Part shown: positions 358-34,285 of the stretch, in pieces
Layout of the letters: each line of letters starts with the position of its first letter
Numbering within the stretch: position 1 is the first letter of the stretch
Source: Promicromonospora umidemergens
GTDB taxonomy: Bacteria; Actinomycetota; Actinomycetes; Actinomycetales; Cellulomonadaceae
Direction: 5' to 3'
Assembly: GCF_024171995.1 (NCBI RefSeq)
Contig: NZ_JAMTCT010000023.1
Location: forward strand, 1 to 64,000
DNA: 64,000 nt
Translations under genes and position numbers: made by a program
The notes under the pieces: generated by a model
Databases searched by the model: none
What the model saw: only the letters and a program-made list of their open reading frames with translations
Told to the model about the DNA's origin: nothing

Positions 358-402
358 ACCCTAACGGCCACCGACCCACCGGTCGATGGGTACAGCTACC
401 CA
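358..402 (-). promoter_or_regulatory. Predicted promoter and dyad operator of the WXG100 gene
   Basis: TGGGTA-CAGC-TACCCA at 387-402 is a perfect dyad, and its arms extend to 12 bp each (381-408). On the minus strand a TAGGGT -10-like hexamer lies at 358-363. The dyad centre is 31.5 bp upstream of the first base of that hexamer, about -43 from a presumed start site, which is a class II activator position. A further TGGGTA half-site lies at 351-356. The same dyad recurs at 3943, 26601 and 34270. Confidence 0.6.
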
Positions 403-521
403 TCGACCTTCGCGAACGGAAACACCGTCGAGGCGGCTGCACGAGGCCCCGCCGACCGCTAGGTTCGTCGGGCGCGGGGCACCAGCCGGAGCACGCGAGC
501 CGCACGACAGGAGCAGACGAC

Positions 522-779
522 ATGAACAAGAAGCAGGACGCAGCGAACGCCGCAGTCAACCGTTCCGCACGACCGGCGATGTACGCCTTTGTCGCCGCCA
601 TAGTGCTCTGCGTGGTCGGGGTGGTACTGGTCGGTACGGCACCTGACCTCTTCGCCGCGCTCGGAGGCTGGGTCACCGTCATCGTGATCCTGTTCCTCAT
701 CGCCGTCCTGGCCGGCCTCGCCATCGTGCGGAGCACGAACCGGAACGCCGACCGCACGGGCGACGGGCCCGACGCCTGA
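522..779 (+). CDS. Small two-helix membrane protein
   Basis: This 85-residue protein has a short charged N-terminus and two strongly hydrophobic segments (about residues 20-42 and 48-69), followed by a charged Arg/Asp-rich tail, so both ends are probably cytoplasmic. An AGGAGC ribosome site precedes the ATG. It is the only plus-strand gene in the first 34 kb and is divergent from the WXG100 gene, so the dyad at 387-402 lies in their shared upstream region and could control both. Small membrane proteins are common next to type VII loci, but I do not recognise a family here and assign no function. Confidence 0.65.
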   Translation: MNKKQDAANAAVNRSARPAMYAFVAAIVLCVVGVVLVGTAPDLFAALGGWVTVIVILFLIAVLAGLAIVRSTNRNADRTGDGPDA

Positions 780-797
780 CCGGTAGCCGCACAGGCC

Positions 798-3555: not shown

Positions 3556-3570
3556 CGTTGTTGCTCTCCC

Positions 3571-3870
3571 CTACTTCGCTGCCGCGTCTTCGAGCGCCTT
3601 GCCGAGCTCGTTGTCGATCTGTTTGAACGTGTCCGCGATCTGACCGATGATGTCGGACAGCTTCTTGACGTTCTCGAGCATCTCGCCGCGCTTGATCTCC
3701 CACTTGTCCGCGAACTCGTTCACGCGGTCACGCAGCTCGTCATGGCCGGTCGCGTCGGCAGCCGCCTGCGCGTTGCCGTCGGCGTTCTCCAGCTCGCTGG
3801 TGATGGTCTTGAGATCTTCCTTGAGCGTGGTGAGCTGATCCATGTCGATCGAGAGATCGTAGCCAGCCAT
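3571..3870 (-). CDS. WXG100-like protein, probable type VII substrate
   Basis: This 99-residue helical hairpin is rich in Asp, Glu and Lys. Helix 1 spans about residues 10-40, the turn contains Ala-Thr-Gly in place of Trp-x-Gly, and helix 2 contains an aromatic-charged stretch (FADKWEIKRGEM). This matches the small helical proteins encoded beside EssC/EccC ATPases. The gene is followed after 15 bp by the effector candidate, which it may escort as a heterodimer. It is preceded by a 135-bp gap holding the second copy of the TGGGTA-N4-TACCCA dyad and a TACGGT -10-like element. The exact family is unproven; length and context carry the call. Confidence 0.8.
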   Translation of the reverse strand: MAGYDLSIDMDQLTTLKEDLKTITSELENADGNAQAAADATGHDELRDRVNEFADKWEIKRGEMLENVKKLSDIIGQIADTFKQIDNELGKALEDAAAK

Positions 3871-3912
3871 CGTTCATCCTGCTTTCTCGCGTCAGGTCTC
3901 ACGTCTGGCAGA

Positions 3913-3958
3913 ACCGTACCCGCGCGGCCGACGAAGCGGCCATGGGTAGCACTCCCCA
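3913..3958 (-). promoter_or_regulatory. Predicted promoter and dyad operator of the second WXG100-like gene
   Basis: TGGGTA-GCAC-TCCCCA at 3943-3958 is the same 16-bp dyad with one changed arm base. Taken with a different spacing it forms perfect 12-bp arms (3935-3946 and 3955-3966). A TACGGT -10-like hexamer lies at 3913-3918, its first base 32.5 bp from the dyad centre. The hairpin also sits just downstream of the ATPase gene that ends at 4006, so it could act as a terminator too. Confidence 0.55.
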
Positions 3959-4005
3959 TGGCCGCTCCGCCGACCGCGCGCCGGTCAGCCGTCAGAGGTC
4001 GCCGG

Positions 4006-8484: not shown

Positions 8485-8496
8485 GAATCCTCCCCA

Positions 8497-9464: not shown

Positions 9465-9521
9465 CCACTCACCTCCCCGTGCCAGGTCCGAGCGGATGCG
9501 CTCGGAGCTACCGTTGTCTGC

Positions 9522-11165
9522 TCAGCCCTTCGCGGTGACGCAGCCGGCCTGCGCGCTCGACGCCTTGCTGGAGCGCACCACCACGATCTCCACGCAGGTC
9601 TCGCCCTTGAGCGGAACCGCAACGGTCGTACCGTTCGGCACCGGCTGGAACACGGGCTCGCCCGTCAGCTCCAGCACCCGGTAGGCATAGGTGTCACCCT
9701 CCTCCAGGGACTTGGGTGGCGTCCATGTAAACACCGCTTCCTCACCCTGCGCCTTGCCCTTGACCTCGCTCACGGGCGGTACGTAGCCGCCGGCCGGCGC
9801 GGGGGGCACGACGGCGGAGGTCGAGGCGGTCTGCTCGCCCTCCGGGTCGTCGCCGCCGCCCTGCGCGAGCGCCCAGGCGGACACTCCGACCACCGCCACG
9901 ACCACCACGCCGACGACCAGCGCCCAGATACCGCGGCGCGGCTCCTCCTCGGCCTCTGCGGCCGGGGCCGGCGTGGCTGTCTCCGGTGCGAGCTGCCCGA
10001 CGGCGCCCGGGGTCGCCTGGGTGCCCTGCGTCGCCTGGTCCGCCGAGCCGCGGTACACGGTGTCGTCAGAGGGCGCTGGCCTCAGGGCCGGCGCCTGCGT
10101 CGGCGCAGCGGGCGCAAAGGCGCCGGTCGCCGCGGCCTGCAGGGCGCCGCCCGAGCCGCCGGCCCCTGCCCTGCTCCCGCCCGGCCCGAACGCGCTCGGG
10201 CCGGCGGCACCGCTCGCGCCGGCCGGGTCGATGGTGACGACCTGGCGCAGCCGGGTGCCGTCGGCCTCTGCCTCGTCCTCCTGCATGGCGCCGGACTCGT
10301 CCAGCAGGTCGATGGGGGTGACGTCGCGGGACAGCTCGACCTGGACCTTCTGCAGCTCGCGCGCGAAGGCCAGCACGGTCGGGTACCGCGAGGAGGACAG
10401 CTTCGACATCGCGATGCGCAGCACGCGCTCCAGCGACGGCGTGACGTCGCTACGGCTCACCGGCGGCAGCTCGTCCTGCTCGATGCGGCGCACGAGGTCG
10501 GCGGACGTGTTCGAGCCGCCCGGCGTCTCGAACGGGGTGCGTCCGGCCAGCAGCGTGTAGCAGGTCGCGGCCAGGGCCCACACGTCGGTCGCGATGCCGG
10601 ACATCGGCGGGTCGCCGAACGACTCCGGCGGGGACCACGGGATCGACATGCCTTCGGCCGCCGCCGCCTCGTCGACCGTCGACGAGATGCCGAAGTCGGT
10701 CAGCGCCGGGTGCCCGAACTGCGTCACCAGGATGTTCGAGGGCTTCAGGTCACGGTGCAGGATGCCCAGCCGGTGGGCCGTCTCGACGGCGCCCGCGATC
10801 TGGATGGTGATGCGCAGAGCCTCGGCCACCGAGAACCGCTCCGACCGGTAGCGCGCACCCAGGTTCGGGCGCGAGCAGTACTCCATGGCCAGGTACGGAC
10901 GACCGTCGTTCGCGACGCCCGCCTCGTACATCGTGACGATCGACGGGTGGTTGCCCAGCGTCGCCATCAGGTCCGCCTCGGCGTCGAACGCCGCGCGCTG
11001 CGTCGCGCTCGACCACTCCTTGAGCAGCACCTTCACCGCGATCTGCCGACGCGGCCGCTGCTGCTCGTACAGGAACACGTCCGAGAAACCGCCCGACCCG
11101 ATGAGCTTGCGGTACTCGAAGCCCTCGATCTCGGGTGGCGGGGACGGCTTCCTCTTGCTGCTCAC
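9522..11165 (-). CDS. Membrane Ser/Thr protein kinase (PknB/Pkb2-like)
   Basis: The 547-residue protein has an N-terminal kinase domain (about residues 15-280) with a Gly-rich loop (GSGGFSDVF), the ATP-anchoring Lys in AVKVLL (about 42), HRDLKPSN (about 137) and DFG (about 158), so it should be active. A Pro/Ala-rich linker leads to one membrane helix (about 410-434), and an extracellular region of about 100 residues looks like a single FN3-type beta domain rather than PASTA repeats. The GTG start has AGGAG upstream. It sits between two FHA-protein genes and near a PP2C phosphatase and the FHA-bearing ATPase, all likely substrates or partners. In the bifidobacterial PFNA cluster the corresponding gene is pkb2. 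Confidence 0.93.
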   Translation of the reverse strand: MSSKRKPSPPPEIEGFEYRKLIGSGGFSDVFLYEQQRPRRQIAVKVLLKEWSSATQRAAFDAEADLMATLGNHPSIVTMYEAGVANDGRPYLAMEYCSRPNLGARYRSERFSVAEALRITIQIAGAVETAHRLGILHRDLKPSNILVTQFGHPALTDFGISSTVDEAAAAEGMSIPWSPPESFGDPPMSGIATDVWALAATCYTLLAGRTPFETPGGSNTSADLVRRIEQDELPPVSRSDVTPSLERVLRIAMSKLSSSRYPTVLAFARELQKVQVELSRDVTPIDLLDESGAMQEDEAEADGTRLRQVVTIDPAGASGAAGPSAFGPGGSRAGAGGSGGALQAAATGAFAPAAPTQAPALRPAPSDDTVYRGSADQATQGTQATPGAVGQLAPETATPAPAAEAEEEPRRGIWALVVGVVVVAVVGVSAWALAQGGGDDPEGEQTASTSAVVPPAPAGGYVPPVSEVKGKAQGEEAVFTWTPPKSLEEGDTYAYRVLELTGEPVFQPVPNGTTVAVPLKGETCVEIVVVRSSKASSAQAGCVTAKG

Positions 11166-11229
11166 ACTGCTCCTTCGTCGGTGGTCCAGCCTGCGGTCGA
11201 GCCTGCGGTGATCGAGCCGGTCGAGGCCC

Positions 11230-13053
11230 TCACCAGATGCCCTCGAACGTGAGGGTCACGCCGTCACCCAGGTCGACGACGTCGCCGTCGGACACGTGCT
11301 CCTTCTCGTTCGGGTGCAGGCGTCGCGCGGGCTGGCCCGGCCGCAGCAGCGTCGTCCCGTTCGTGGTGGCCAGGTCGGTCACGAGCACGTGCCAGTCCTC
11401 GAGGGAGATCGCGGTGTGGGACCGCGAGATGTCCTGCTGGGGGCTGGAGACCGTGACGAGGCGCGGCATCTGGTCCGCCGAGGTGTTGTTGGTGCGGGGC
11501 CGCCGGCCCACGATCACCGCCCGGTCCAGCTCGACCACCTGGCCGCCACGCACCCCCGCCGCGCCGGCCGTCGCGGCCCCTGACGTCACGACCATGCGGC
11601 CCAGCGAGGGGCGCGCGGCCAGCTCGGCCTCCGCCGACAGCGCGCTGCCGCACTCCCGGCAGTTCTCGCGGGCGGTCGGGTTGGCGTGGCCGTTCTCGCA
11701 CGTCACCGCAAGGATCCGGGGCGCGTTCGGGTTGGCGGGCGCGGAGAACTTCGGCGCCGACGGCGCGGACGCGGCCGCCTTGAGGTCCGCGATCGCGGAC
11801 GACATCACCGTGTGACCGTCGTGGTCGTCGTCGGCAGCTTCGGCCTCCCCGCCGACGGCCGCCGCGCGGTGCGCGGCGGCCGGCGTGGCGCCGGGCCAGC
11901 CGGGCACGCCGGAGATCGGGGCACCGGAGATCATGCCGTCCGGCCCGGGATCAGCGGTGTCCGGCAGTGCGGTGTCCGGCAGCGCGGGAGCCGGGACGGG
12001 CGGGGCCGGCGGGGGCGGCGGTACCGCGGGTGCCGCGCCCGACGCCGGGGCGGGCTCGTCCTCCCCCTCCTCCTCGCTCTCCGGCCGCACTGCGGCTGCC
12101 TCGACACCGTGGGCGACGGTGGCACCCCACAGGTGCATGTAGTCGTCCTCGTCCGGGGCCTCCTCCTGGGCGACCTCCGCCTCGGGCGCGGGCGACGGCG
12201 CCTCGCCGCCGATCTCCCCGTCGGGCGCGAAGGTCTCCTCGGACGCCGGGACCATGGTGACCGTGCCCATCGCGGCGACGGTGGCGGAACCGGGCTCGAC
12301 CGGCACCTCGGCGGCTGAGCCTCCGGTCTCGACCGGTGTCCCGGAGGCCGAGCCTGTCGACACCAGGGGCTCGACAGCTGTCCGGGAGGCTGAACCTGTC
12401 GGCACCAGGGGCTCGACCAGCGGCGAGACGGACCCTGCCGACGGCGCGGACTCGATCAGCGACGAGACGGGTCCTGCCGGCGGTGCCGACTCGATCAGCG
12501 ACGAGGCAGGCTCGCCCGACCACTCGACCACCGGCCCGGCCGGCTCGACCACCTGGTGGCGCACCACGCCCGCCAGGACCACGCCCGACTCGACGGGCAG
12601 GCCCTCCGCGAAGCTGCCGAAGCCCGACACTCCCGTCGCCACCTCGACCGCGGTGACGCCGTCGACCACGCGCTCGGTCCACGAGATCACACCTGCGCCC
12701 GACACGGTCTGGGACTCGTCCCCGGTCTCGATGGTCACGGTCAGCCCGTCGCCGCGGGCCACCACGTGCGCACTGGCGGGCTTACCCGTGCCGGCTCCCG
12801 TGAGCACCACGACCGCGAACGGCGGAACTCCCTTGAGCCCGCCCACCGCGGACGTCGTCAGCGTGCCGAGGACCTCCGCGACCCCCGCGCCCGGTGTCGC
12901 GAGGTCTGCCCAGAGGCCCGCGGCCGGGTCCGCCTCGTCCGCTCCGGTCCCTTCGCCGGGCAGCACGACGACGGCGTCGCCGCGCACGATGACGCGCGCC
13001 TTCCCCGTCGTGTACCGGATCCCGGTTCGCTGTCCAGCGTCCGAGGTGCTCAT
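11230..13053 (-). CDS. FHA-domain protein with zinc-ribbon-like element
   Basis: The 607-residue product has a beta-rich N-terminal domain (about 1-190), a long Pro/Ala/Glu low-complexity region with degenerate tandem repeats of a Glu-Ser-Ala-Pro or Val-Glu-Pro-Leu type (about 190-400), a Cys4 motif (C-x-N-G-H then C-x-x-C, about 450-475), and a C-terminal FHA domain (about 500-607) with VGRRP, DISRSHTAI and TNGT. The FHA recognition residues are intact, so it should bind phosphothreonine made by the adjacent kinase. AGGAGG precedes the ATG. There is no membrane segment. The repeats in DNA (12300-12430) belong to the GTCGAG-type dispersed repeat family seen elsewhere in this window. Confidence 0.85.
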   Translation of the reverse strand: MSTSDAGQRTGIRYTTGKARVIVRGDAVVVLPGEGTGADEADPAAGLWADLATPGAGVAEVLGTLTTSAVGGLKGVPPFAVVVLTGAGTGKPASAHVVARGDGLTVTIETGDESQTVSGAGVISWTERVVDGVTAVEVATGVSGFGSFAEGLPVESGVVLAGVVRHQVVEPAGPVVEWSGEPASSLIESAPPAGPVSSLIESAPSAGSVSPLVEPLVPTGSASRTAVEPLVSTGSASGTPVETGGSAAEVPVEPGSATVAAMGTVTMVPASEETFAPDGEIGGEAPSPAPEAEVAQEEAPDEDDYMHLWGATVAHGVEAAAVRPESEEEGEDEPAPASGAAPAVPPPPPAPPVPAPALPDTALPDTADPGPDGMISGAPISGVPGWPGATPAAAHRAAAVGGEAEAADDDHDGHTVMSSAIADLKAAASAPSAPKFSAPANPNAPRILAVTCENGHANPTARENCRECGSALSAEAELAARPSLGRMVVTSGAATAGAAGVRGGQVVELDRAVIVGRRPRTNNTSADQMPRLVTVSSPQQDISRSHTAISLEDWHVLVTDLATTNGTTLLRPGQPARRLHPNEKEHVSDGDVVDLGDGVTLTFEGIW

Positions 13054-13144
13054 GGTCGCCTCCTAAGTGTGTTGCTCTGCTCGTGTCCCGCCCCTGCCCA
13101 CAGCCCTGCGTCAGCCTCTGTCGCCCGTCGCGACCCTGCCCGGC

Positions 13145-13951
13145 TCAGTCACGCGGCAGGGTGTCCTCGTCCGCGAACCCACCCCGCGGCGAGGTGCTCG
13201 TGCCCGCCGTCTCGTGCGCCACGCCCGTCGCGTCCACCACGATGACCGTGATGTTGTCCCGGCCACCCGCGGTGATCGCTGCCTCGACCAGCCGCCCAGC
13301 GGCCACCTGCGGATCGGGGTGGCCCAGCATGATCTCGGTGATCCGCGCGTCGTCGAGCTCACCCGTCAGCCCGTCCGAGCAGACCAGGATCCGGTCGTGC
13401 GCGCCGATCGGGATGTACCGGAAGTCGGCTCGCGCCTCGTCCCGCCCGCCCAGCGCACGTGTGATCACGTGTCGGCGCGGATGGTCCCGCGCCTCCTCGG
13501 CGGTCAGCGTACCCGCGTCGACCATCTCCTGGACCTCGGAGTGGTCGACGCTCACCTGGTCCAGCACACCGCTGGAGAGCAGGTAGGTGCGGGAGTCGCC
13601 CACGTTCACGAACAGCCAGTACGGCGCGTCGTCGAGGTATGCGACCACGGCGCCGGTGAGCGTCGTGCCGGCGCCGCGGCCCAGACCGGAGGTGTCGATG
13701 GCCCGGACCCGCTCCTGCGCCGTCTCGAGCAGCGCCTCCACGTGGTGCGGCTCCACGCGCTCGATGTCAGACAGCGGGCGCAGCGCGTCCAGCGCCGTCG
13801 CGCTCGCGACCTCGCCTGCCGCGTGCCCGCCCATGCCGTCGGCCACGAAGAAGGCGCCGCCGCCGGCGAAGTAGCCGTCCTCGTTGAGCTGCCGGCGCAG
13901 CCCCCGGTCGGAGGCAGCGCCCCAGGCGAGCGTCAGCGCCTCCTCGTTCAT
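13145..13951 (-). CDS. PP2C-family Ser/Thr protein phosphatase
   Basis: The 268-residue cytoplasmic phosphatase carries the metal-binding PP2C motifs SDRGLRRQLNED, VADGMGGH, CSDGLTG and GGRDNITVIVVD in the usual order, so it should be active. It lacks the C-terminal membrane helix of mycobacterial PstP and consists of the catalytic domain plus a short tail. It should reverse the phosphorylation made by the kinase at 9522-11165. Its ATG overlaps the stop of the RDD-FHA gene (ATGA), tying it to the transglutaminase-DUF58-MoxR block. It corresponds to prpC of the bifidobacterial PFNA cluster. Confidence 0.93.
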   Translation of the reverse strand: MNEEALTLAWGAASDRGLRRQLNEDGYFAGGGAFFVADGMGGHAAGEVASATALDALRPLSDIERVEPHHVEALLETAQERVRAIDTSGLGRGAGTTLTGAVVAYLDDAPYWLFVNVGDSRTYLLSSGVLDQVSVDHSEVQEMVDAGTLTAEEARDHPRRHVITRALGGRDEARADFRYIPIGAHDRILVCSDGLTGELDDARITEIMLGHPDPQVAAGRLVEAAITAGGRDNITVIVVDATGVAHETAGTSTSPRGGFADEDTLPRD

Positions 13952-15561
13952 GCGGAGGCCTGCGGGTGCACGACGACGCGCCGGTCACCCACGTGGATCG
14001 TCGACCCCACCGGCACCCGGACCCGGGCGCCCGGCTCGGCCACGCGCGGCGGCAGACCGGGCGCCGAGACCACCGTGCCGTTCGTGGAACCGCGGTCGGT
14101 CAGCCACAGGCCTGCGGTGTCCACGCCCAGCTCGGCGTGCGTCTTGGACACCGACCGGGTCGGGTCCTCCACCTTGATCAGGATCCAGCCCGACGGGTCG
14201 GGGGCCTGCGGATTGCGGCCGACGAGCGCCTTGGTGTCGACGACGTAGCGCTCGCCGCTCTCCACCTCCAGCACCACCGTCGTCACGGGCGCGGGGGTGA
14301 GCGGACGGCTCATGTGGGTGCGCGTCATGTCGACCGGCGCCGAGTCACGCTGCTCCGGCTCCGGCCGCTGCACATGCTGGACCGGCTGCACGTGCTGGAC
14401 CGGCTGCACCGGCTGGGCCGGCATCGGAGCACGCTGCGTCAGGTCCGGCTGCGCGGGCTGCCGCACCTGCGCGGAAGGTGCGACGGGCGGCGTCTGCTGG
14501 ACCGGCTGCTGCCGCACGGGCGGCTGCGCCGGCTGGCCCGGATGCGGCGTGCCGCCGGAGCCCGGGTGCGGTCGGCGGACCGTCGCGGGCTCCTCCTGCG
14601 GGGGCAGTGCCTGCGTCGGGGCACCGGGCGCCTGGCCGGGGATCCCGGTGATCACACCCGCGCCGCCGCGGTTCGCCGAGGAGCTCGGGAACGCCCACGG
14701 GTCCTGGGCCGGCGCGGCAGGCTGGGCCTGCTGGGCCTGCTGGGCCTGCTGGGCCTGCTGGGCCTGCTGGGCCGGGACTCCGTTGGCAGCGCCGGTCCAC
14801 ATCTGCGAGGTGCCCGCTGGTGCCTGCGTGGCAGGCCCCGCGGCCGGCCTCGCGGCATTACCCGTCGTCGACCTGGTGGCCGTCGCCGCAGCGGCGCCCG
14901 CAGGAGCGCCGGCAGGGGCGCCGGCGACGTCGGACGCCATGAGCACTACCGCGCGGCCGAGCTTGTCGTGCCAGCCCTGCCGCTTGCCCCGACCGTCGAA
15001 CGCCGGGGACACGAGCACCAGGATCTGGCCGACCAGGCACGCCAGGGCGCCGAGCCCCACGATGAGCCAGCGCAGGAACGCCCGGCCGAACCCGATCGGG
15101 TCGTGCGCGACGGCGTCGACCGTGCGGATCTTGCAGACGAGGTTGCCGATCGTCTTGCCGGTCTTGCCCTCCCATGCGGAGACGCCGAGCCAGTAGCCCA
15201 GCGCGAGCAGGCCGCTGATCAGCTGCGGCACCGTCATCGCCGAGGCGATGGCCTCTGGCGACATGAGCAGTGCACCGGTGCCGCCCGCGCTGGCGAGCCC
15301 GATCATGAGGATGACCCAGGCCACGACCCCGATCACCGCGGCGTCCAGGAGCGCGGCGAGGAACCGGCGGCCGGTGCCCGCGTACGCGACCGGTTCCGGC
15401 TGCACCGCGGAGACGCCTATCCGCGTGTGCGAGAGCGACTCCGGCACCGTGGTCCCGACATCACTTGTCTGGGCGCGCGGGAACGGGCGCCCGCACACGC
15501 TGCAGTACGGGATGCCCCCGTCCTGTGCAGACCCGCATCCAGCACAGACCACGTCCGTCAT
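13948..15561 (-). CDS. RDD-family membrane protein with zinc ribbon and FHA domain
   Basis: The start is the ATG at 15561, in ATGA overlap with the preceding gene; the frame open further upstream is a shadow. The 537-residue protein begins with a Cys4 zinc ribbon (C-x-x-C ... C-x-x-C, residues 5-23), followed by an RDD membrane domain of three or four helices (about 50-190), a Gln/Pro/Ala-rich linker (about 200-425) and a C-terminal FHA domain with GRNP, SVSKTHAEL and STNGT. The linker contains repeated Gln-Gln-Ala units from a 9-bp tandem repeat. It probably recruits phosphorylated partners to the membrane under control of the adjacent phosphatase and kinase. Confidence 0.88.
   Translation of the reverse strand: MTDVVCAGCGSAQDGGIPYCSVCGRPFPRAQTSDVGTTVPESLSHTRIGVSAVQPEPVAYAGTGRRFLAALLDAAVIGVVAWVILMIGLASAGGTGALLMSPEAIASAMTVPQLISGLLALGYWLGVSAWEGKTGKTIGNLVCKIRTVDAVAHDPIGFGRAFLRWLIVGLGALACLVGQILVLVSPAFDGRGKRQGWHDKLGRAVVLMASDVAGAPAGAPAGAAAATATRSTTGNAARPAAGPATQAPAGTSQMWTGAANGVPAQQAQQAQQAQQAQQAQPAAPAQDPWAFPSSSANRGGAGVITGIPGQAPGAPTQALPPQEEPATVRRPHPGSGGTPHPGQPAQPPVRQQPVQQTPPVAPSAQVRQPAQPDLTQRAPMPAQPVQPVQHVQPVQHVQRPEPEQRDSAPVDMTRTHMSRPLTPAPVTTVVLEVESGERYVVDTKALVGRNPQAPDPSGWILIKVEDPTRSVSKTHAELGVDTAGLWLTDRGSTNGTVVSAPGLPPRVAEPGARVRVPVGSTIHVGDRRVVVHPQASA
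14719..14774. repeat. 9-bp tandem repeat inside the RDD-FHA gene
   Basis: About six copies of ctgggcctg lie head to tail and encode alternating Gln-Gln-Ala units on the minus strand. The unit is a multiple of three, so copy number can change without breaking the frame. It lies in the flexible linker between the membrane and FHA domains. Confidence 0.8.
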
Positions 15562-18032
15562 CGACTCTCCTTCGTCCGACGGGACCCGAGCGCCCCGAGC
15601 GCCGCGAAGATCCCGCGGCGACCACCGATTCGTGCCCAGACGGAGCGGAGCGACAACGCTGCCCGCACCCTCTGTCGCGTGCTCACGGTGGAGCGTAGCC
15701 CGCCCACCAGCTCGTCCACCTCTTTCCAGAACGCCTCGACGTCGGCAGCCGTCGGCTGCTCCCGTCCGAAGACCGTCGCGTCGGCGCGGTGCGCGAGCAT
15801 GAGCGTCGACGGGACCTCGTGCGCCCCGGCGATCACACCGGCGCTCTCGCGCCTGGTCGCCCCGCGGGGAACGTTGGTCCCGAGGTCGGTCACGACGTCG
15901 ACCACCTCGTGCCACCCGCCGCTTACCCGGTCTGCGAGCTGCTCCGCGCTCCGGCGCCGCGCCCGGCGTCGCGCCTTGTAGGCGAGGATCGCCACGATCG
16001 GACCGGCGATCAGCAGCAGCGGGATACCGACAGCGAGCAGGATCACGCCGAGCAGACCCCAGTCGAAGAGGTCGTTCTCGGCCTCGTCCTTCTCGTCGTC
16101 CTCGACGCTGCCCGCCTTCGCCTTGTCCGGCTCCTCCGGCGGCTCCGGGTCCTGCAGCACCGGCGGCTTCGGCACCTCCTGGCTCTTCGGCTCGGGCTGG
16201 ATCTGCGGCTTCTCCTCGGGAACCGCGTCGACCGGCACCCAGCCGTAGCCCTCGAAGGGCACCTCGATCCAGGCGTGCACGTCGCTGCCGAGCACCGTCC
16301 AGGGCTCGCCCTCCTCGTACTCGCTGTCCTTGTCCGGGTAGAAGCCCATGACGACGCGGGCCGGGATGCCCGACTGGCGGGCCATGAGGGCGAGCGCGAC
16401 GGCGAACTGCTCGTCGTCGCCGACCATCTTCTCTTCCTCGACGAGGGTGTCGATGCGCTCGGCCGAGTGGCCAGGGCGGGACGGCACCTCTCCGTCCAGG
16501 CCGCTGGACAGCACGCCTGACGCCTGCAGGGCGTCACGGATCAGGAACAGCTTGGTGGCCGGGTCGGTCTGCTCGCCCGTGAACTGCGTCGACTTGGCGG
16601 GCAGGCCCGGCGGCATCGCGCTCGCCTCGGTCTCCGGCAGGTCGGCCCCGAGGATCGTGCCCTTCTTGAGGGTTTCCTCGTCGGGGTTCTCCGTCACCAG
16701 CGTGCTCAGCCGGTACGTGTCGCCCCGTTTGATACCCGCCGTGGTGATGGCGGTGCGGGTCGTCGAGTTGTAGTAGGTCCCGTCCGTCTGCGCCTCAGCG
16801 TTCGCTCCGGTCCACTCCACACCGGTGAGACTCCCGATCTCCGGGACCCAGACACCGCTGTAACCCGTCACGGTGACGTCGATCGGCGTCGGGGTGCCCT
16901 CCTGCGAGGTCGCGATCTGCTCGCCGACGCGCGTGTAGACGCCGGTGTCGCCGCCCTCGCCGGACGCGTCGAACACCACGCCGTCGTACCGGTCGAGCGT
17001 CGCGAGCCGGATGCGGCCGTCCTCGGGCAGGTCACTGACCGTGAACTGCTCGTCCTCGCGGGCGTCCTTCGCGTAGTGCCGGAAGGCCACGAGCGGGCTG
17101 GTGAACTGGTGGACGTTCAGCGGCGGCACGATCGTCTCGCGCAGGACCGTGCGGGGCTGGTCCGGCATGAGGATCGGCGCGGTGAAGCCGGCGGCCAGCG
17201 CCGCGACGCCCAGGATCATGGCGCCGCTGCGGACCCGGTACCAGCGGAGGCGGCGGGTGGCCTCACGGCTGGCCTCGGTGCTGATCGAGTGCGTGCCGAC
17301 ACGCGCCTCCATGACGCGCACCGCGCCCCAGAGGAGGGCGGCGATGGCGACCACGAGGCCCTGCACCACCGGCAGCGCGGCGTCGAGCGTGCCGAGGAGG
17401 ATCACGCCGGCCAGGCCCGCGATGACCGGCACCACTGCCCACACCGCGTGCTTCGCACGCCAGGAGATGGTGCCGGCCGTCAGCGCGACGAGCAGCATGA
17501 GCAGGAACGGGACCACCGCGAGGTCGGGGAAGGACCGCATGGGCGGCACGGTGGTGACGAACTGCTTCCAGCCTTCGACGGAGCCGAGCAGGAGCTCGCG
17601 CAGCGTGTCGAGGGTCGGCACCACCCCTGCGACCGTCGTGTGCGGCAGCGCGAGCGCGCCACCGAACAGGAGGTACCCAAGGACGGCGAGCGCGGTCACC
17701 ATCACGGCGGGGAAGCGGCGCCAGGCGCCCACCCAGGCCACCAGCAGGCCGACGACGGCACCGCCGGCCGTCGGCAGCACGTAGCCCAGCGAGCCCCAGA
17801 CGGGCCCGAAGCCGACGGCGACGGCGCCGAGCATCACGCTCAGCGCCGCGACGTCGACCAGGGCGAACCAGGTCAGCGCCCGTGGACGTTCGGCCTCCTT
17901 GCGGCGCGTGGTGCCCCGGCCGGTGCCCGTGCCGTAGCCGGTCCGGGTGCCCCTGGTGCGGGACGACGGCCGGCCAGAGCCTGATCCACCCGCCCCGACC
18001 GGGACGTTCCCACGGGTGTTCTCGTCGCTCAT
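15558..18032 (-). CDS. TgpA-type transglutaminase-like membrane protein with altered catalytic Cys
   Basis: The ATG at 18032 overlaps the DUF58 stop, giving 824 residues; the open frame upstream of it is a shadow. A basic Gly/Arg-rich N-terminus leads to five or six membrane helices (about 60-240), an extracytoplasmic region with a transglutaminase core (about 480-610), one more helix (about 654-680) and a cytoplasmic tail. In the core the expected Gly-x-Cys-x-x-Phe-Ala reads GDDEQFA, so the nucleophilic Cys is Asp (codon 16413-16415, residue about 540). The His (DVHAW, about 586) and Asp (PVDAV, about 602) remain. It is therefore probably not a conventional transglutaminase or Cys protease. 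The DUF58-MoxR neighbours are the normal context, and the gene corresponds to tgm of PFNA clusters. Confidence 0.88.
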   Translation of the reverse strand: MSDENTRGNVPVGAGGSGSGRPSSRTRGTRTGYGTGTGRGTTRRKEAERPRALTWFALVDVAALSVMLGAVAVGFGPVWGSLGYVLPTAGGAVVGLLVAWVGAWRRFPAVMVTALAVLGYLLFGGALALPHTTVAGVVPTLDTLRELLLGSVEGWKQFVTTVPPMRSFPDLAVVPFLLMLLVALTAGTISWRAKHAVWAVVPVIAGLAGVILLGTLDAALPVVQGLVVAIAALLWGAVRVMEARVGTHSISTEASREATRRLRWYRVRSGAMILGVAALAAGFTAPILMPDQPRTVLRETIVPPLNVHQFTSPLVAFRHYAKDAREDEQFTVSDLPEDGRIRLATLDRYDGVVFDASGEGGDTGVYTRVGEQIATSQEGTPTPIDVTVTGYSGVWVPEIGSLTGVEWTGANAEAQTDGTYYNSTTRTAITTAGIKRGDTYRLSTLVTENPDEETLKKGTILGADLPETEASAMPPGLPAKSTQFTGEQTDPATKLFLIRDALQASGVLSSGLDGEVPSRPGHSAERIDTLVEEEKMVGDDEQFAVALALMARQSGIPARVVMGFYPDKDSEYEEGEPWTVLGSDVHAWIEVPFEGYGWVPVDAVPEEKPQIQPEPKSQEVPKPPVLQDPEPPEEPDKAKAGSVEDDEKDEAENDLFDWGLLGVILLAVGIPLLLIAGPIVAILAYKARRRARRRSAEQLADRVSGGWHEVVDVVTDLGTNVPRGATRRESAGVIAGAHEVPSTLMLAHRADATVFGREQPTAADVEAFWKEVDELVGGLRSTVSTRQRVRAALSLRSVWARIGGRRGIFAALGALGSRRTKESR

Positions 18033-19372
18033 CCGTCGCTCATCTTCTTCAGGGCAAGGGGCAGGTCTGCGAGCCGGCCCAGGGTGAGCACACCGAGCTC
18101 GGCGATGGCGTGCCGGCCGAGGGACGCGCCCGGGACGCACTGGATCGCCATGACCTGCACCCCTGCGGGGACACGGGCCGACGCCGAGCGGAGCTCGGTG
18201 GGCGTCACCCTGCTGCCGATCACGAACGCGATCACCGAGAAGTCCGCCGCGGCCATGGCGGCCGAACGGGCCAGGTCGACCAGCTTGGACTTGCGGGACT
18301 CGAGCTCGATCCGCGACAGGTCGTCCATGAGGCGCGTGCGGTGGTCACCGCGCAGCGAGGCCTCGTTGACCAGCACCGTGACGCCGCGGTCCTCCTTGAT
18401 GGCCTGCAGGCCCAGGGAGCCGCACACGCTCACCGCGAGCTCGAACTCCTCGTCGTTCGCGTAGTCCTCGGCGCGCGTGGACAGCAGCACCGCGAGGTGC
18501 GAGCGGCGGGTCTCCTCGAACTGGCGCACCATGAGCTGGCCCGTGCGCGCCGTCGTCTTCCAGTGGATGTGCCGCCGGTCGTCGCCGGGCACGTAGTCAC
18601 GCAGGGCGTGGAAGTTCACGTCCGAGTTCGTGATGTCGTTGGTGACCCGCCCCTCGAGGTCCTTCAGGAAGCCGGTCGACGAGCCCGTGAGGTTCTTGAC
18701 GCGCGGGTGCACGAAGACCTCCTGCTCGTTCGTCCAGGTCATCTCGCGGCGGAGCAGGCCGAGCGGGTCAGCGCGAACGGACTTGACCGGACCGACGGTG
18801 ATCACGCTGCGGCGCCGGGTCGGGATGGTGAAGATCTCCTCGTGCGACCCACCGCGGGGCAGGCGCGGCACGGGGAACGCTGCGGTGCCGGTACCGACGG
18901 GAAGCTCCATCACCGAGGGAAGCAGCGCGCGGCTCGACCCGTTGCGCACGTCGAGCCGCCCGACGGCGCGGTCACCGACCGTCACGCGCGCCTGCGCCAG
19001 GTCCAGCACGACGTCGTACTTGAACCGGCCCAGCACGAACACGATGGCGCAGACGAGCGTCACGGTGAGCACGATCGCCGCGACGAGCACCTCGAGCCAG
19101 CCGAGCATCAGCCCGGCCACCCACGCACCGGCGGCCGTGAGCGTCACCGCGATGCCGAACGTGCTGAACGTGCGGCGGACAGGCGTGAGCACGCGCCCGA
19201 CCGCCGCCGCCCGCGAACGGACGGCGGCGGTGAGGGTCACCCAGCCGCGCTGACCACGCAGCACCTGCGCGCGGCCGCCGGCCACTACCCCGCCGAGGCC
19301 GCGCGGCTTCTCCTGCCGCTTCCCGTACGCGGTGCCCGACGCCCCGCCGGACGAGATGCCCGTGGCCGTCAT
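18029..19372 (-). CDS. DUF58 domain membrane protein
   Basis: The 447-residue protein has a basic N-terminal tail, two adjacent membrane helices (about residues 72-115), a beta-rich region, and the DUF58 signature (DYVPGDDRRHIHWK, around 255-275) followed by a von Willebrand A-like fold. DUF58 proteins are encoded next to MoxR ATPases and transglutaminase-like membrane proteins and are thought to act with the ATPase in assembling or chaperoning exported proteins. Its ATG overlaps the MoxR stop and its stop overlaps the transglutaminase-like start, so all three are coupled. It matches duf58 of the PFNA cluster. Confidence 0.92.
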   Translation of the reverse strand: MTATGISSGGASGTAYGKRQEKPRGLGGVVAGGRAQVLRGQRGWVTLTAAVRSRAAAVGRVLTPVRRTFSTFGIAVTLTAAGAWVAGLMLGWLEVLVAAIVLTVTLVCAIVFVLGRFKYDVVLDLAQARVTVGDRAVGRLDVRNGSSRALLPSVMELPVGTGTAAFPVPRLPRGGSHEEIFTIPTRRRSVITVGPVKSVRADPLGLLRREMTWTNEQEVFVHPRVKNLTGSSTGFLKDLEGRVTNDITNSDVNFHALRDYVPGDDRRHIHWKTTARTGQLMVRQFEETRRSHLAVLLSTRAEDYANDEEFELAVSVCGSLGLQAIKEDRGVTVLVNEASLRGDHRTRLMDDLSRIELESRKSKLVDLARSAAMAAADFSVIAFVIGSRVTPTELRSASARVPAGVQVMAIQCVPGASLGRHAIAELGVLTLGRLADLPLALKKMSDG

Positions 19373-20343
19373 GCCGAAGCCCGCTCCTGCGGAGCCGCGA
19401 CGTCGCTCATGATCCGGGCCAGGATGACGTCGGGGCGGGAGCCCGCGAACTCGGCCTCCGGGTCCAGCACGAAGCGGTGGCCCCAGACGGGCTGGGCCAG
19501 CTCCTTGATGTCGTCGGGCAGCACGTAGTTACGGCCGTGCGCGGCTGCCCACACCTTGGAGCAGCGCACCAGGGCCAGCGCACCACGGACCGACACGCCG
19601 ACCCGCACCTCGGCCGCGTTGCGCGTCTCCTCGCTGAGCCGGCTGACGTACTCGAGCACCGCTGTGTCGGTGTGCACGGTCATGGCCAGGTCGGCCATCT
19701 CCGTGACGGCCTTGGTCGTGATGAGCGGCTGCAGCGCCAGGCTGCGGTCCTTCACCGAGGCGCCCGACAGGATCTCCACCGTCGACGCGTGGTCCGGGTA
19801 CCCGACGGACGTCTTCATGAGGAAGCGGTCGAGCTGTGCCTCGGGCAGGCGGTAGGTACCGGCCTGCTCGATCGGGTTCTGGGTGGCGAGCACCATGAAC
19901 GGGCGGCCGGTCTCGTGCGCGATCCCGTCGACGGTGACGCGGCCCTCCTCCATGACCTCCAGCAGCGCCGACTGCGTCTTCGGCGAGGCACGGTTGATCT
20001 CGTCCGCCAGGACGATGGAGTTGAAGATCGGGCCGGGGTGGAAGTCGAACTTGCCCGAGTTCTGGTCGTAGATCGTCACACCGGTGACATCGGACGGCAG
20101 CAGGTCCGGCGTGAACTGGATGCGGTTGTGCGTCCCCTGGACCGACGCCGCGATGGAGCGGGCGAGCATGGTCTTGCCCGTGCCGGGAGCGTCCTCCAGC
20201 AGCAGGTGGCCCTCGGCGAGCATGCAGGTGAGCGCCAGGCGGATCACCGGTGCCTTGCCAAGGACCGCCTGGCCGACGTTACCGACGAGCCGGTCGAAGG
20301 TCTGGGCGAACCAGGCCGCCTGCTCGGGGGTCATCGTGGTCAT
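19369..20343 (-). CDS. MoxR-family AAA+ ATPase
   Basis: This 324-residue cytoplasmic AAA+ protein has Walker A in EDAPGTGKTML (about 50-60), Walker B in IVLADEINRASP (about 108-120), a sensor-1 Asn in VLATQNPIEQ and the C-terminal lid helices typical of MoxR. MoxR ATPases remodel or activate partner proteins, commonly those carrying VWA or DUF58 domains, here the coupled downstream gene. It is the first gene of the long minus-strand run reaching to the secretion ATPase. The upstream gap to the giant FN3 gene is 105 bp and holds a strong hairpin, so a separate promoter is possible though I cannot locate one securely. Confidence 0.94.
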   Translation of the reverse strand: MTTMTPEQAAWFAQTFDRLVGNVGQAVLGKAPVIRLALTCMLAEGHLLLEDAPGTGKTMLARSIAASVQGTHNRIQFTPDLLPSDVTGVTIYDQNSGKFDFHPGPIFNSIVLADEINRASPKTQSALLEVMEEGRVTVDGIAHETGRPFMVLATQNPIEQAGTYRLPEAQLDRFLMKTSVGYPDHASTVEILSGASVKDRSLALQPLITTKAVTEMADLAMTVHTDTAVLEYVSRLSEETRNAAEVRVGVSVRGALALVRCSKVWAAAHGRNYVLPDDIKELAQPVWGHRFVLDPEAEFAGSRPDVILARIMSDVAAPQERASA

Positions 20344-20439: not shown

Positions 20440-20448
20440 CGGGCCGTC

Positions 20449-26493: not shown

Positions 26494-26561
26494 GCGTCCT
26501 CCTCTTCATCACTCCACCGAAGTCTGTTCACCCGGACCGCACACACAGGCGCAACGGGAGC

Positions 26562-26616
26562 ACCTTACCGGGACGAAGGGTGAATCGTCCTGGAGTTTTG
26601 TGGGCAGGACTACCCA
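26562..26616 (-). promoter_or_regulatory. Predicted promoter and dyad operator of giant surface protein A
   Basis: TGGGCA-GGAC-TACCCA lies at 26601-26616, one base from perfect. A TAAGGT -10-like hexamer is at 26562-26567, its first base 41.5 bp from the dyad centre. That is about one helical turn farther than in the other three copies, so the activator would bind the same DNA face. The remainder of the 26494-26664 gap shows no other clear element. Confidence 0.45.
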
Positions 26617-26664
26617 TGGTGCTCGACCGGATTGTAGGAGTCTGTCCGCCGCCTTGGCCGGTCG

Positions 26665-28065: not shown

Positions 28066-28099
28066 GCACCTACTCTAACATTGTTAGAGTAGGTGCATG
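28063..28099. promoter_or_regulatory. 37-bp perfect palindrome over the regulator start codon
   Basis: Perfect 18-bp arms (28063-28080 and 28082-28099) flank a single central base. The left end contains the ATG of the regulator gene (read on the minus strand). TAGAGT, a -10-like hexamer, is present in both orientations because of the symmetry, about 7 bp from an ATG each way. The core is CTCTAACA-T-TGTTAGAG. An autoregulatory operator is the likeliest role. Confidence 0.75.
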
Positions 28100-28152
28100 T
28101 GGGTCGGCGGGCGACGGGACATCAGGCAAGGGTGAAGCTGGTGCACGGCGAC

Positions 28153-31100: not shown

Positions 31101-34100
31101 TGTGCGTGCCCTCGCCGTCGGGCGCGGTGACGACCACGAGGTCGTCCGCGACCTCCGGCTCCAGCTCGGCCGCACCGTCGAACGACTTCGGCACCAGGCC
31201 CACCTGGTCGCCGTTCGGGTCCGAGTCGTTCGCCAGCGCGTCGATGCCGATCGTCCGGCCCGGCCGCACCGACACCTCGTCGTCCACGGCGAGCGGCGCC
31301 TGGTTCACCTGCGGCGGCGTCGCCACCCCGACGCGGACCGTTCCGGTGGCGGTGGCGCCACGCGTGTCCGTGACGGAGTAGGTGAGCTGGTCCTCCCCTG
31401 CGGCGTTCGCGGAGGCCGCGTACTCCAGGTACCCGTCGACGATGTCGACGGTGCCCATCTCCGGCGCCGACGTGATCGCCTCGAGCTGCACGTGGTCGCC
31501 GTCCGGGTCGCTGCCCTCCAGCGGGAGGGCTACCCGGGTGCTCGCTCCGGCCAGCACCCGCGCCGTGACGTCGGGCGGCTGCGGTGCGACGTTCTCGTCG
31601 TCGTCCACCACCGTCACGGTCACCTGGGCGGAGTCCTTCTGGCCGTTGGGGTCGGTGACCTCGTAGACCAGGTGGACGGTGCCGGACCGGTCCGGACCCG
31701 CCTTGAACCGGACGCTGTCCTCGGACACGAACGCCTCGCCCGCCTCCGGCTGCTCCACCAGGTCCTCGGCGAGCGTGAGCTCGAGCCCGTCCGGGTGGGC
31801 GTCGTTGGTCAGCACCGGGATCGTCACGACGTCGCCGGCGTGCACCGTCGCCTCGTCGGCGTCGGCCTCCGGCGGGCGGAGCTTCGTCGCGGCAGGCACC
31901 GGCACCACCCGCACCTGCCCGACGGCGGTCTCCGTGCCGTTCGCCGCCGTGTACTCGATGGTGACCGGGCCCTCCGGCCGTTTGACCTCGCTGAGGCGCA
32001 GCACGTGGTGGTCCAGCACCGCCGCGGTCACCGGGGCGCCGTCGGGCACGGTCACCGACTGCACGACGAGCACGCCGCCGGCCGGGTCGGTGTCGTTCGC
32101 CAGCACGTCCACCAGGGCGGAACCACCGGCCGGCAGGAGCACCGTGTCGGTCACCGTCACCGGGACACCGTCCTGCTCCGGCGGCGGCAGCACATCCACG
32201 CGCACCAGCCCCAGCGTCGCTTCCGGGCCATCGCTCACCTGATAGGTCAGGTCGTACGATCCCGGCTCCTGGCTCAGGAACCGGAACGAGCCCGCCGCGA
32301 AGTTCGGCGTGATCGTGGCCGGAGCCTGCTCGCCCACGTCGACCAGCCGGAGGCGGTCGCCGTTCGGATCGGTGTCGTTCGTCAGCGGGTACACCGTCAC
32401 CGGCTGTCCGGCCGGAACCGCCACGTGGTCCCCGACGGCGACCGGTGGCGCCTCCGCTGCGACGACGTCGACCAGGAGCCTGCCCTCGCCCACCATGCCG
32501 CCGCTGTCGCTGACCGTGAGGTCGACGATCTTGCGGCCCGTCGCGCCACCACCGTCGCGGAACTCGACGGCGCCGTCCGGGCGGAACCGGATCTCGTCGG
32601 CGACGTCACCGGTTGCGGCGCTGGACAGCACGAGGTCGTCACCGTCCGGGTCGCGCCAGAAGGGCAGCACCTTGATCGTCGCCTCGCCGCCCTGCGCCAC
32701 GCGGAGCACCGGTTCGCCGTCGGCGGCGGGAGCCTCGTTCGAGCCGGGCGGCACCACGCGGACCCGGACCTTCGCGTCGGCCGTACCGCCACGACCGTCG
32801 TCGACCGTGTACCTGAGAGTGGCCGAGCCCGACGCTTCCGCCGGCACGTCCACCTGGAGCGCCAGACCGTCCAGCACCCGGTGCACGGTGATGCCCTTGG
32901 CGTCCTCTGGCGGCTGCGCCACCGACACGGTCATCACGTCCCCGTCCGGGTCGGTGTCGTTGCCCAGCACGTTCAGCACGGTGGTGCGCCCGGGGCGCAC
33001 ACCGAGATCGTCGTCCTCCGGCGTTGGCGCCCGGTTCGGCTTGTCACGTTCGGCGACGAGCTGGTCCACCAGCTCGGGCGTCGTCGTCTCCGTCTCGGTC
33101 TTCTCCCCCTCGGCCTCCTCCGGCATCGTGAGGTCCCAGTCGTCGACCTTCTCGAAGTCGTCGGCGGCCATCCACAGGGTGCCTTCTGCGACGTCGTTCA
33201 GCACGACGACGTCGCGGTTGACCCGGTAGGCGAGCTCGCCGTCCGCCCCCTCGAGGCTCTGGTCCACGTCACGGTCCGTGCCCGGGCAGTCCCGCACCAC
33301 CTGACCGGTACCCGACCAGGCACCGAACGTGCAGGCGCCCACCTGGACGGGAGCCGCCGGGACGCCGTCGGCCACGCGCGTCGTCGACTCGCCGCCGCCC
33401 AGCGGCTGCGCGACCAGCCCGGTCGGTGTGCCGACCGCCACCGACCGCTTCTCGTCCGACGGCTGCTGCAGCCGCCCCTCTGCGCCGCCTGGCAGGTCCA
33501 CGACCTCGCCACCGGGCAGGACCAGCGCGGACGCCGTCCGGTCCAGCACCACCGGCTCGTCGCCGACCGCGGTGAGCTCCACCTCGGCGTCCTTCGCCAC
33601 GGGGAGCTCGCTCTCGATGACCTCGCCCGGTGCGCCACGCTGACCGGTGTCGACCCGGTACAGCATCCCGTCCGACGGGACCGCGACGAACACCGTCCCG
33701 TCGGTCGCGACGGCGAGCCGCCCGCCCGCGCCGAGCTCCGCCGTCGGCTCGAGCTCCTCCTCGTCGAAAGCTGTCACGCCGTCGAAGGGCAGCACCCACA
33801 GCCGGCCGTTCTCGGGGTCGAGGATCGCGGTGGCCGGGCCGCCGGACGCGACCTGGGCGCCTCTCGGCGCCTGGACCGGGCCCGCGAGCACCAGCTGGGC
33901 GGGGTCGACGGGGCTCGCCGCCGATGTACCTTCGTCCGTCAGCAGCACCCGGCCCTCGTCCTGCTGGACGTCGAAGTTCGACGATCCGGCGAGGAGGGTG
34001 CTGTCCAGGGCTCCTGCCTCGTCGTTGAAACGACCCAGCTTGCCCGAGGCGGTCTGCGTGACCCAGACGCCGGAGTCGTTGAGCTCGAGCTCCGCCGTGG

Positions 34101-34218
34101 CCTCGCCGTCCTGCAGGAAGGCAAGAGCCAGCAGCGCACCACTGAACAGTGCCACCAGAGCCCAGGACACGACGAACCCTGTCGTAAACCTGAACCTGCC
34201 CTCGACCGCGTCCGCCAC
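28153..34218 (-). CDS. Giant Ig-like/FN3 surface protein B
   Basis: GTG 34218 is chosen because GAGGGGG lies six or seven bases upstream; an in-frame start at 34290 would cross the predicted promoter. The 2021-residue protein repeats the plan of protein A in order: one membrane helix (about 12-36), a beta-rich region opening with the same stretch (LNDSGVWVTQTASGKLGRFN), ten Ig-like modules with Asp/Asn Ca-binding loops, five FN3 modules, and a C-terminal domain that is Cys-bearing but diverged from that of A. The two are clearly tandem duplicates, differing most at the C-terminus, which suggests different partners. The dyad at 34270 places it in the same proposed regulon. The product is anchored and exposed, with no enzymatic motif seen. 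Confidence 0.9.
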   Translation of the reverse strand: MADAVEGRFRFTTGFVVSWALVALFSGALLALAFLQDGEATAELELNDSGVWVTQTASGKLGRFNDEAGALDSTLLAGSSNFDVQQDEGRVLLTDEGTSAASPVDPAQLVLAGPVQAPRGAQVASGGPATAILDPENGRLWVLPFDGVTAFDEEELEPTAELGAGGRLAVATDGTVFVAVPSDGMLYRVDTGQRGAPGEVIESELPVAKDAEVELTAVGDEPVVLDRTASALVLPGGEVVDLPGGAEGRLQQPSDEKRSVAVGTPTGLVAQPLGGGESTTRVADGVPAAPVQVGACTFGAWSGTGQVVRDCPGTDRDVDQSLEGADGELAYRVNRDVVVLNDVAEGTLWMAADDFEKVDDWDLTMPEEAEGEKTETETTTPELVDQLVAERDKPNRAPTPEDDDLGVRPGRTTVLNVLGNDTDPDGDVMTVSVAQPPEDAKGITVHRVLDGLALQVDVPAEASGSATLRYTVDDGRGGTADAKVRVRVVPPGSNEAPAADGEPVLRVAQGGEATIKVLPFWRDPDGDDLVLSSAATGDVADEIRFRPDGAVEFRDGGGATGRKIVDLTVSDSGGMVGEGRLLVDVVAAEAPPVAVGDHVAVPAGQPVTVYPLTNDTDPNGDRLRLVDVGEQAPATITPNFAAGSFRFLSQEPGSYDLTYQVSDGPEATLGLVRVDVLPPPEQDGVPVTVTDTVLLPAGGSALVDVLANDTDPAGGVLVVQSVTVPDGAPVTAAVLDHHVLRLSEVKRPEGPVTIEYTAANGTETAVGQVRVVPVPAATKLRPPEADADEATVHAGDVVTIPVLTNDAHPDGLELTLAEDLVEQPEAGEAFVSEDSVRFKAGPDRSGTVHLVYEVTDPNGQKDSAQVTVTVVDDDENVAPQPPDVTARVLAGASTRVALPLEGSDPDGDHVQLEAITSAPEMGTVDIVDGYLEYAASANAAGEDQLTYSVTDTRGATATGTVRVGVATPPQVNQAPLAVDDEVSVRPGRTIGIDALANDSDPNGDQVGLVPKSFDGAAELEPEVADDLVVVTAPDGEGTHTFYYGVEDSFAARATGAITVEVARDAPLLRPVARDDAVAPEDVASPAVTVDVTGNDLDPDGLAADLEVTVPGQGPDGATVTDDGEIAVPLTAHPQVITYEVTDMDGLTGKAFLRVPRDGTLPRLREDLAAVEVAAGEPTPLDLTEYVVVAEGRTPRITDESKVAATEGDHEVTGPAAVTYTAYKDYSGPAALTFEVTDGSGIDDPDGRTALLTLPIDVLPGENEPPEITGTPALEAAAGEETALDLSRFVVDPDGDPLTVTVAGDTGGLSLATEGATVLATAAPDVPKGNTATVGFTVSDGGHPPVAGQLTVTVVASTRPLVRANTDEVPDAHQGEPVTVDVLENDINPFPEDPLRLVSARLESGRGTVETAGDSVTVTPPADFHGVTVVRYRVADVTDDPTREVEGTARVTVLGAPETPRPPVVEEVRSETVVLSWDPPSDNGAEITEYRVRPSRGSATTCPTTTCTITGLTNNQTYTFTVTAENEVGTSGESGASEEARPDEKPDPPAAPELVFGDQLLTVTWQNRSYTDRSPIECVNLEISPAPPSGQLQKTCLDGTRTVWEGLRNGTAYTVRVQARNAAPDPSEWSDPSAPETPAAPPARPAAPTASRAPTAAGGKITVQWTAPATNGATIKTYHLSVFRDGNEERTMPVTGASKTLNNLDQRSAYQFTVVAENKAGRSPESPRSTALEPHGTPLVPGNPSAALTEDTNGKARVSWGEISEFRGNGPYYEVRADGSREERATGSPFDFTGLSNGRDHTFDVRACNKHTCSQWTTRSNSVKPYTVPGRPELGWTRDRSDDGYFSVFAATSTGGSEVTGTEFVMSGDHDDSGNRSPTSRINVPTGPNKSYTLRARSCNAAGCGAWAEKTGTTGSDASNRTVRAAKGGGAGGGENYVEIVVRAGTPGAGFRVRCVADGEEFYPTTFTDEVRNRERNDRFGNPLVLDANGNIDAELACSWGRSGSQVWVNTDVWGDSTRAAW

Positions 34219-34241
34219 GAACCGCCCCCTCAACAGGCTGC

Positions 34242-34285
34242 ATCCTAGCCAGAAGTTCGGATGCGCAGGTGGGGAGAAATACCCA
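34242..34285 (-). promoter_or_regulatory. Predicted promoter and dyad operator of giant surface protein B
   Basis: TGGGGA-GAAA-TACCCA lies at 34270-34285 with one altered arm base. A TAGGAT -10-like hexamer is at 34242-34247, its first base 30.5 bp from the dyad centre. The predicted mRNA leader is then only about 17 nt, ending in the GAGGGGG ribosome site of the GTG start. Confidence 0.55.

Follow-up and report, generated by a model that had tools for sequence, protein, structure and literature searches.

The stretch of DNA analyzed here (the window) is 64,000 nucleotides of the Promicromonospora umidemergens genome. A giant Ig/FN3 gene (20449–26493) heads a run of genes, 4006–26493, that ends with a kinase gene and an FHA-FtsK ATPase gene (Table 1). 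Of the two genes that an earlier note on this DNA had called WXG100-like, the one at 12–302 is a WXG100 gene, while that at 3571–3870 receives no WXG100 score from Pfam or NCBIfam. The combination of a WXG100 protein, an FHA-FtsK ATPase, a membrane Ser/Thr kinase and a very large Ig-rich protein at one locus is shared with T7SSd. There the very large Ig-rich protein is TsdI, which belongs to the envelope and has an N-terminal signal and a C-terminal membrane helix; the accessible text on T7SSd describes no operator for it (PMC11217815). The Ig/FN3 proteins of the window have no C-terminal hydrophobic segment by hydropathy. Since the membrane helix of TsdI is not seen in them, we say only that the run resembles T7SSd and label it T7SSd-like. 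By eye, the first ~45 residues of the FtsK ATPase resemble a ubiquitin-like fold. A Schlafen/AlbA_2 protein with an HTH domain is encoded between the two giant genes (26665–28065), and adjoining HTH-nucleotidyltransferase and HepT-like genes (34458–35398) resemble an MNT/HEPN toxin–antitoxin pair.

Table 1. Dyads, hexamers and genes of the window, with the dyads found before mraZ in the genus. Positions are those of the window unless a locus is named.
Feature	Position	Strand	Remarks
WXG100 protein, 96 aa	12..302	-	Pfam WXG100, 61.5 bits
-10-like hexamer TAGGGT	358..363	-	23 nt from dyad 1; spacing class 22–25 nt
Dyad 1, TGGGTACAGCTACCCA	387..402	.	Exact; 5' of WXG100 gene 12–302; 10 such sites among the genus genomes precede WXG1-type genes
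99-aa protein	3571..3870	-	WXG100-like by size and position only; no Pfam family, no credible NCBIfam match
-10-like hexamer TACGGT	3913..3918	-	24 nt from dyad 2; TANNNT at 23–24 nt in only 7 of 15 sites of the EccC-WXG group
Dyad 2	3943..3958	.	One mismatch; between the FtsK/EccC-like gene and gene 3571–3870; site at the same place in 13/13 Promicromonospora genomes
FtsK/SpoIIIE ATPase, N-terminal FHA domain (EccC/TsdC-like), 1492 aa	4006..8484	-	
Ser/Thr kinase	9522..11165	-	One hydrophobic segment
FHA protein	11230..13053	-	
PP2C phosphatase	13145..13951	-	
RDD and FHA protein	13948..15915	-	ORF coordinates; approximate start
TgpA-type transglutaminase	15558..18140	-	ORF coordinates; approximate start
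DUF58 protein	18029..19372	-	
MoxR AAA ATPase	19369..20343	-	
Giant Ig/FN3 protein, 2014 aa	20449..26493	-	N-terminal hydrophobic segment
-10-like hexamer TAAGGT	26562..26567	-	33 nt from dyad 3; spacing class 33–35 nt
Dyad 3	26601..26616	.	One mismatch; 5' of Ig/FN3 gene 20449–26493; Ig/FN3-gene site in 13/13 genus genomes
Second giant Ig/FN3 protein, 2021 aa	28153..34218	-	N-terminal 300 aa 58% identical to those of the first
-10-like hexamer TAGGAT	34242..34247	-	22 nt from dyad 4
Dyad 4	34270..34285	.	One mismatch; 5' of Ig/FN3 gene 28153–34218
mraZ dyads	L012:7633, L084, L098, L108, L111, L121, L123, L130, L138, L147, L150, L156		

Four copies of an inverted repeat, TGGGTA-N4-TACCCA, had been reported at 387, 3943, 26601 and 34270. 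All four are there, one exact and three with one mismatch, and the −10-like hexamers lie at the reported distances of 31.5, 32.5, 41.5 and 30.5 bp from the dyad centers. Counted on the minus strand from the end of the dyad, the gaps to the hexamer, which has the form TANNNT, are 23, 24, 33 and 22 nt for dyads 1–4. A search of the window with TGGGTANNNNTACCCA, allowing up to two mismatches, gave four matches against 0.36 expected, and four were reached in none of 100 shuffles. An unrelated second inverted repeat of ~23 bp per arm is visible by eye near dyad 4 (34341–34363 and 34372–34394).

The motif is not as common elsewhere in the genome as it is in the window. Among 6,600,894 bases in 65 contigs, the loose pattern TGGGNANNNNTNCCCA (TGGGNAN4TNCCCA) matches nine times, four of them inside the window, versus three matches for a control pattern read backwards; the tight pattern TGGGKANNNNTMCCCA (TGGGKAN4TMCCCA) matches seven times versus one for the control. 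PF06013 (WXG100) has five matches in the genome. One is the gene of the window and another is an identical sequence at the end of contig C3, where the contig end cuts off the dyad. By eye, this end (L181) equals window 1–392 and stops within dyad 1; either the two contigs are neighbors or a second copy of the WXG100 gene lies there. The upstream stretches inspected for the other three WXG100 genes (C1:584374, C6:27853 and C1:588827) hold no such site, the sole exception being one off-pattern match ~950 nt before C1:588827.

The dyads are conserved in relatives, both across the genus and beside named Ig/FN3 homologues beyond it. Twelve other Promicromonospora genomes have 89 loose matches versus 11 for the control. 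When neighboring genes were compared with the proteins beside the nine sites of the window's own genome, with orthology judged by tblastn or by eye, 86 of the 98 sites in the 13 genomes were found to precede ten recurring gene groups, and 12 fell outside every group. The groups are the Ig/FN3 gene (16 sites), the junction of EccC with the next gene (13), the WXG100 gene and its tandem copies (10), other WXG-type genes (4, by eye), mraZ (12), a 201-aa gene (10), a 99-aa gene beside hemL (6), DUF4190 (5), DUF805 (8) and TPR-LuxR (2). Sites occur at the Ig/FN3 and EccC genes in all 13 genomes, at mraZ in 12 and at the 201-aa gene in 10. The mraZ gene, head of the division cluster, has its TAGCGT hexamer 33 nt past the dyad and diverges from a moxR-DUF58 pair. 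We rejected moxR as the target of this divergent site: all 12 sites have the hexamer at 33 nt towards mraZ, and towards moxR there is none at 22–25 or 32–35 nt, only one at 44 nt in three of the 12. The target set is wider than the WXG100 and Ig/FN3 genes originally proposed, taking in mraZ, DUF4190, DUF805 and small unknown genes here and LppM and MoxR genes in other families.

The operator sequence was derived from 99 deduplicated sites. It is an 18-bp palindrome, ATGGGKASnnSTMCCCAT, with a flanking C or G before the outer A. The search pattern fixed the letters TGGG, A, T and CCCA and, for those genomes in which the tighter pattern was used, K and M as well; at the positions left free, the outer A is found in 71%, the outer T in 78% and the inner G/C in ~91% of the sites. 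The 16-bp dyad is thus the core of a palindrome extended by one base at either end (A...T), with a G/C pair in its interior. A palindrome might also act as a hairpin or terminator in the transcript, and at some EccC-WXG junctions the dyad does sit within a longer inverted repeat (L154:3815, L126:2093 and L152:2091, with arms of ~19 bp in L154 by eye). However, over 138 sites the base pairing beyond the core is about what is expected, and the transcript is predicted to start only downstream of the dyad. With the longer arms confined to a few EccC-WXG sites, the hairpin was rejected as a common denominator, and we give this explanation almost no credence.

The relation of the dyad to the −10 hexamer was examined in 143 target-oriented sites, 91 from the genus and 52 from G013, G014, G015, G020, G021, G034, G108 and G157, their orientation being assigned from gene position and so not blind. 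Left out were the genus sites with no plausible target (L001, L086, L094, L107, L109, L134 and L157), L159, L160 and L165 of G014, L168 of G021, L291 and L293 of G034, L302 of G015, L307 of G020 and four sites of G023; sites of G015 (C1:111118), G013 (C68), G018, G022 and G029 are likewise not among the 143. TANNNT starts 22–25 nt past the dyad in 66 hits and 33–35 nt past it in 38; the remaining 53 distances, out to 59 nt, together yield five. On the opposite side of the dyad, 0–34 nt away, there are 11 hits, three of them at 22–25 nt. The hexamer is present at either spacing in 102 of the 143 sites. The 41 lacking it include all six of the 99-aa group, all eight of DUF805, both of TPR-LuxR and eight of the 15 of EccC-WXG.

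The two spacing classes differ in what follows the palindrome. Among 65 deduplicated sites of the nearer class, T directly follows the dyad in 95% and G is third in 78%, which is compatible with a weak −35 beginning at the palindrome edge. The 30 sites of the farther class do not have these bases; they have an A/T-rich stretch 4–8 nt past the dyad. In the 102 promoters, the best match to TTGACA in the −35 region reaches at most four of six bases, yet this is somewhat better than in one shuffle, and for that reason some basal promoter activity without an activator is possible.

A palindrome that keeps a constant phase to the −10, in either of two registers separated by one helical turn and near a weak −35, is placed as class II and related activators are known to sit. 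The conservation of the site and its two sharp spacings one turn apart give strong support to a shared operator at activator-like positions, and the interpretation in the earlier note is to that extent supported in part. Beyond the observed site, with its conservation, recurring target genes and two spacings, we infer that a single protein binds there and that it acts as an activator, not a repressor; it would be a regulator of NarL/LuxR (GerE) type. In our judgment the dyads are quite probably the operator of one dimeric transcription activator. The dimer would bind the 18-bp palindrome, the edge of which would adjoin the −35 of a promoter with a TANNNT −10 or lie one helical turn further upstream, and the bound activator would help RNA polymerase to start transcription. 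Its targets in Promicromonospora would be the WXG100 genes, the T7SSd-like apparatus run that starts at the Ig/FN3 gene, mraZ, and several genes for membrane or unknown proteins. The excess of sites over the control in the window's genome, in its genus relatives and in the f11/g23 genomes described below counts in favor of this reading. Against a single activator count the 41 sites without the hexamer, the 12 ungrouped genus sites, the listed Ig/FN3 homologues that have no site, the failure to find a regulator gene, and the −35 region that beats one shuffle.

The same palindrome could be used by any dimeric repressor, which would block these promoters until a signal arrives, and a −35 region slightly better than one shuffle would suit promoters of that kind. 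But the dyad never overlaps the −10, the two exact phases one helical turn apart are kept, and for a repressor that sat beside the −35 or further upstream, a second register would be superfluous. We therefore consider repression unlikely. The earlier note had proposed that secretion substrates and surface proteins are switched on together. That link should be restated, as the “surface proteins” look like the Ig-rich part of a T7SSd-like machine. Since the Ig/FN3 protein heads the apparatus gene run and resembles TsdI, it is better read as apparatus, and the link is therefore one of apparatus plus substrates.

Beyond the genus, we looked upstream of named Ig/FN3 homologues, which come from Promicromonospora, Isoptericola, Krasilnikoviella, Antribacter, Cellulosimicrobium, Oerskovia, Microbacterium, Puerhibacterium and others. 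Among the matches listed there are 76; an exact site lies within 400 bp in 38, a site with at most one mismatch in 56, and none in 20. In background windows of the same loci, 5 of 2857 have an exact site and 10 of 2857 one with at most one mismatch. For the 56 sites among the matches listed, the hexamer is at 32–35 nt in 43 and at 22–25 nt in 11. A tight match occurs in 146 of 297 genomes drawn from the order. The 18 genomes of f11/g23, perhaps Brachybacterium, have 175 tight matches versus five for the control, and sites are numerous in f20/g67 too; within the 297 genomes, families f7, f14 and f15 have no excess over the control.

Three genomes illustrate the targets in other families. In G034 (f11), 10 of 12 tight sites are assignable to a target. 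Five of these are WXG100-type genes (by eye, two of the loci having weak Pfam hits), and the others are an LppM gene, a bacterial-PH gene, a small membrane protein gene and two more. In G108, 21 sites versus no controls are found, before a MoxR gene, an LppM gene and, by eye, genes for lipoproteins and proline-rich membrane proteins. G157 has eight sites versus no controls, one between a WXG100 gene and an eccD gene and others by WXG-like genes. The dyads are real and part of a promoter set that several families of soil and gut bacteria have in common. A larger reading is that a single activator controls an old regulon for secretion and envelope genes in several actinobacterial families. Acting through one operator in two helical phases, it would serve different type VII variants (FHA-FtsK in Promicromonospora and G034, EccD-bearing in G157) as well as mraZ, MoxR, LppM lipoproteins and small membrane proteins. 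We put the chances for and against that reading at about equal.

A NarL/LuxR-type regulator is a plausible candidate. The window's genome encodes 48 GerE proteins, and none of the 30 whose loci were inspected could be tied to a dyad; in these 30 and in all 13 GerE loci of G034, no dyad is present at the gene's own promoter, off-pattern L030 excepted. The only GerE (LuxR-type) protein that scans found in the window (54779–56026, 415 aa) is encoded beside an FAD-binding protein. In G004 and G008, TPR-LuxR genes do have TGGGTA-type dyads at their starts (L110:2118 and L133:2100), without the usual −10 spacing. This, together with the DUF805 and 99-aa groups that do not show the spacing, raises the alternative that several related regulators use look-alike dyads and that there is no single regulon. 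The core groups, though, have a common consensus and a common spacing, which recur in other families, so that we find several regulators improbable and retain the single activator. TPR-LuxR was rejected as the general regulator: among the matches listed for 29 genomes it is near full length only in G004, G008 and G015, the other matches covering the C-terminal part only.

Other candidates fared no better. MadR (NCBIfam NF047785), which belongs to an enterococcal system, is over the cut-off in none of 39 genomes. A kinase-like domain fused to GerE (L028 and L314) is 59% identical between the window's genome and G034, but it is encoded beside a SIS-domain gene and has no dyad. The DosR-like helix EKTVKN is found in L025 of the window's genome and L322 of G034; their neighbors differ, and they were not taken as orthologues. 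With a profile built from 13 seeds, a GerE ORF was found in 17 of 281 fetched loci. In nine Cellulosimicrobium-type loci, a NarL-type ORF lies ~7–9 kb upstream of the Ig/FN3 gene. Its best match in the window's genome, at 52–58% identity, varies (L034 in five, L022 in two, then L023 and L020), and therefore no clear orthologue emerges. L034 (G000:C15:137290) is also the nearest relative in the window's genome of response regulators beside a dyad in G001 and G010 (L080 and L143). The relatives of L034 may be considered a weak lead to the regulator.

Probably a single protein turns on the secretion machine and its secreted partners along with some genes of the cell envelope. Machine and substrates would be under a common switch, along with mraZ and other envelope genes; provided that mraZ is a true member of the set, this would link secretion to division and to growth of the cell wall. 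With the operator and its strict promoter rule, one could predict type VII machine parts and secreted partners in many actinobacterial genomes. The operator would also give a first lead on unknown envelope genes and make the regulator findable by one pull-down. In the literature searched, in which subscription journals are thinly covered, we found no description of such an operator or regulon.

Several known systems bear comparison. NarL recognizes a 7-2-7 pair of heptamers, TACYYMT-NN-AKRRGTA; DegU is of the NarL type, and the box bound by MacR, a response regulator of Streptomyces, resembles the dyad in its 16-bp outline. The half-site of the dyad, TACCCAT, fits TACYYMT, but as had been pointed out, the order and spacing of the half-sites differ from those of NarL: they face the reverse way, are separated by N4 in place of 2 bp and do not form a 7-2-7 site. 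An orthologue of MacR is a natural thought for the regulator, in that MacRS of Streptomyces coelicolor has a NarL-type regulator whose direct targets, in the accessible text, are membrane proteins and lipoproteins (PMC9739842, PMC10345050). However, the family of its partner kinase, MacS (NF047322), is over the cut-off in 27 of the 297 genomes of the order and is under it in both the window's genome (best 3.0e-25) and G034 (4.7e-9), which has 12 sites, and we think it highly improbable that MacR is the regulator. The DosR (DevR) box of Mycobacterium tuberculosis, TTSGGGACTWWAGTCCCSAA, is bound by a LuxR-family response regulator; as given in the accessible text, it is a palindrome with the same GGG-N8-CCC geometry as the dyad, differing in its inner and outer bases and in its target genes (PMC2275270). 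DegU of Bacillus subtilis belongs to another phylum and acts on another apparatus, and the accessible text shows no operator of the present kind for it, but it is a response regulator that raises ESX-type (type VII) secretion and so provides a precedent for the switching on of type VII secretion by a response regulator (PMC3701619).
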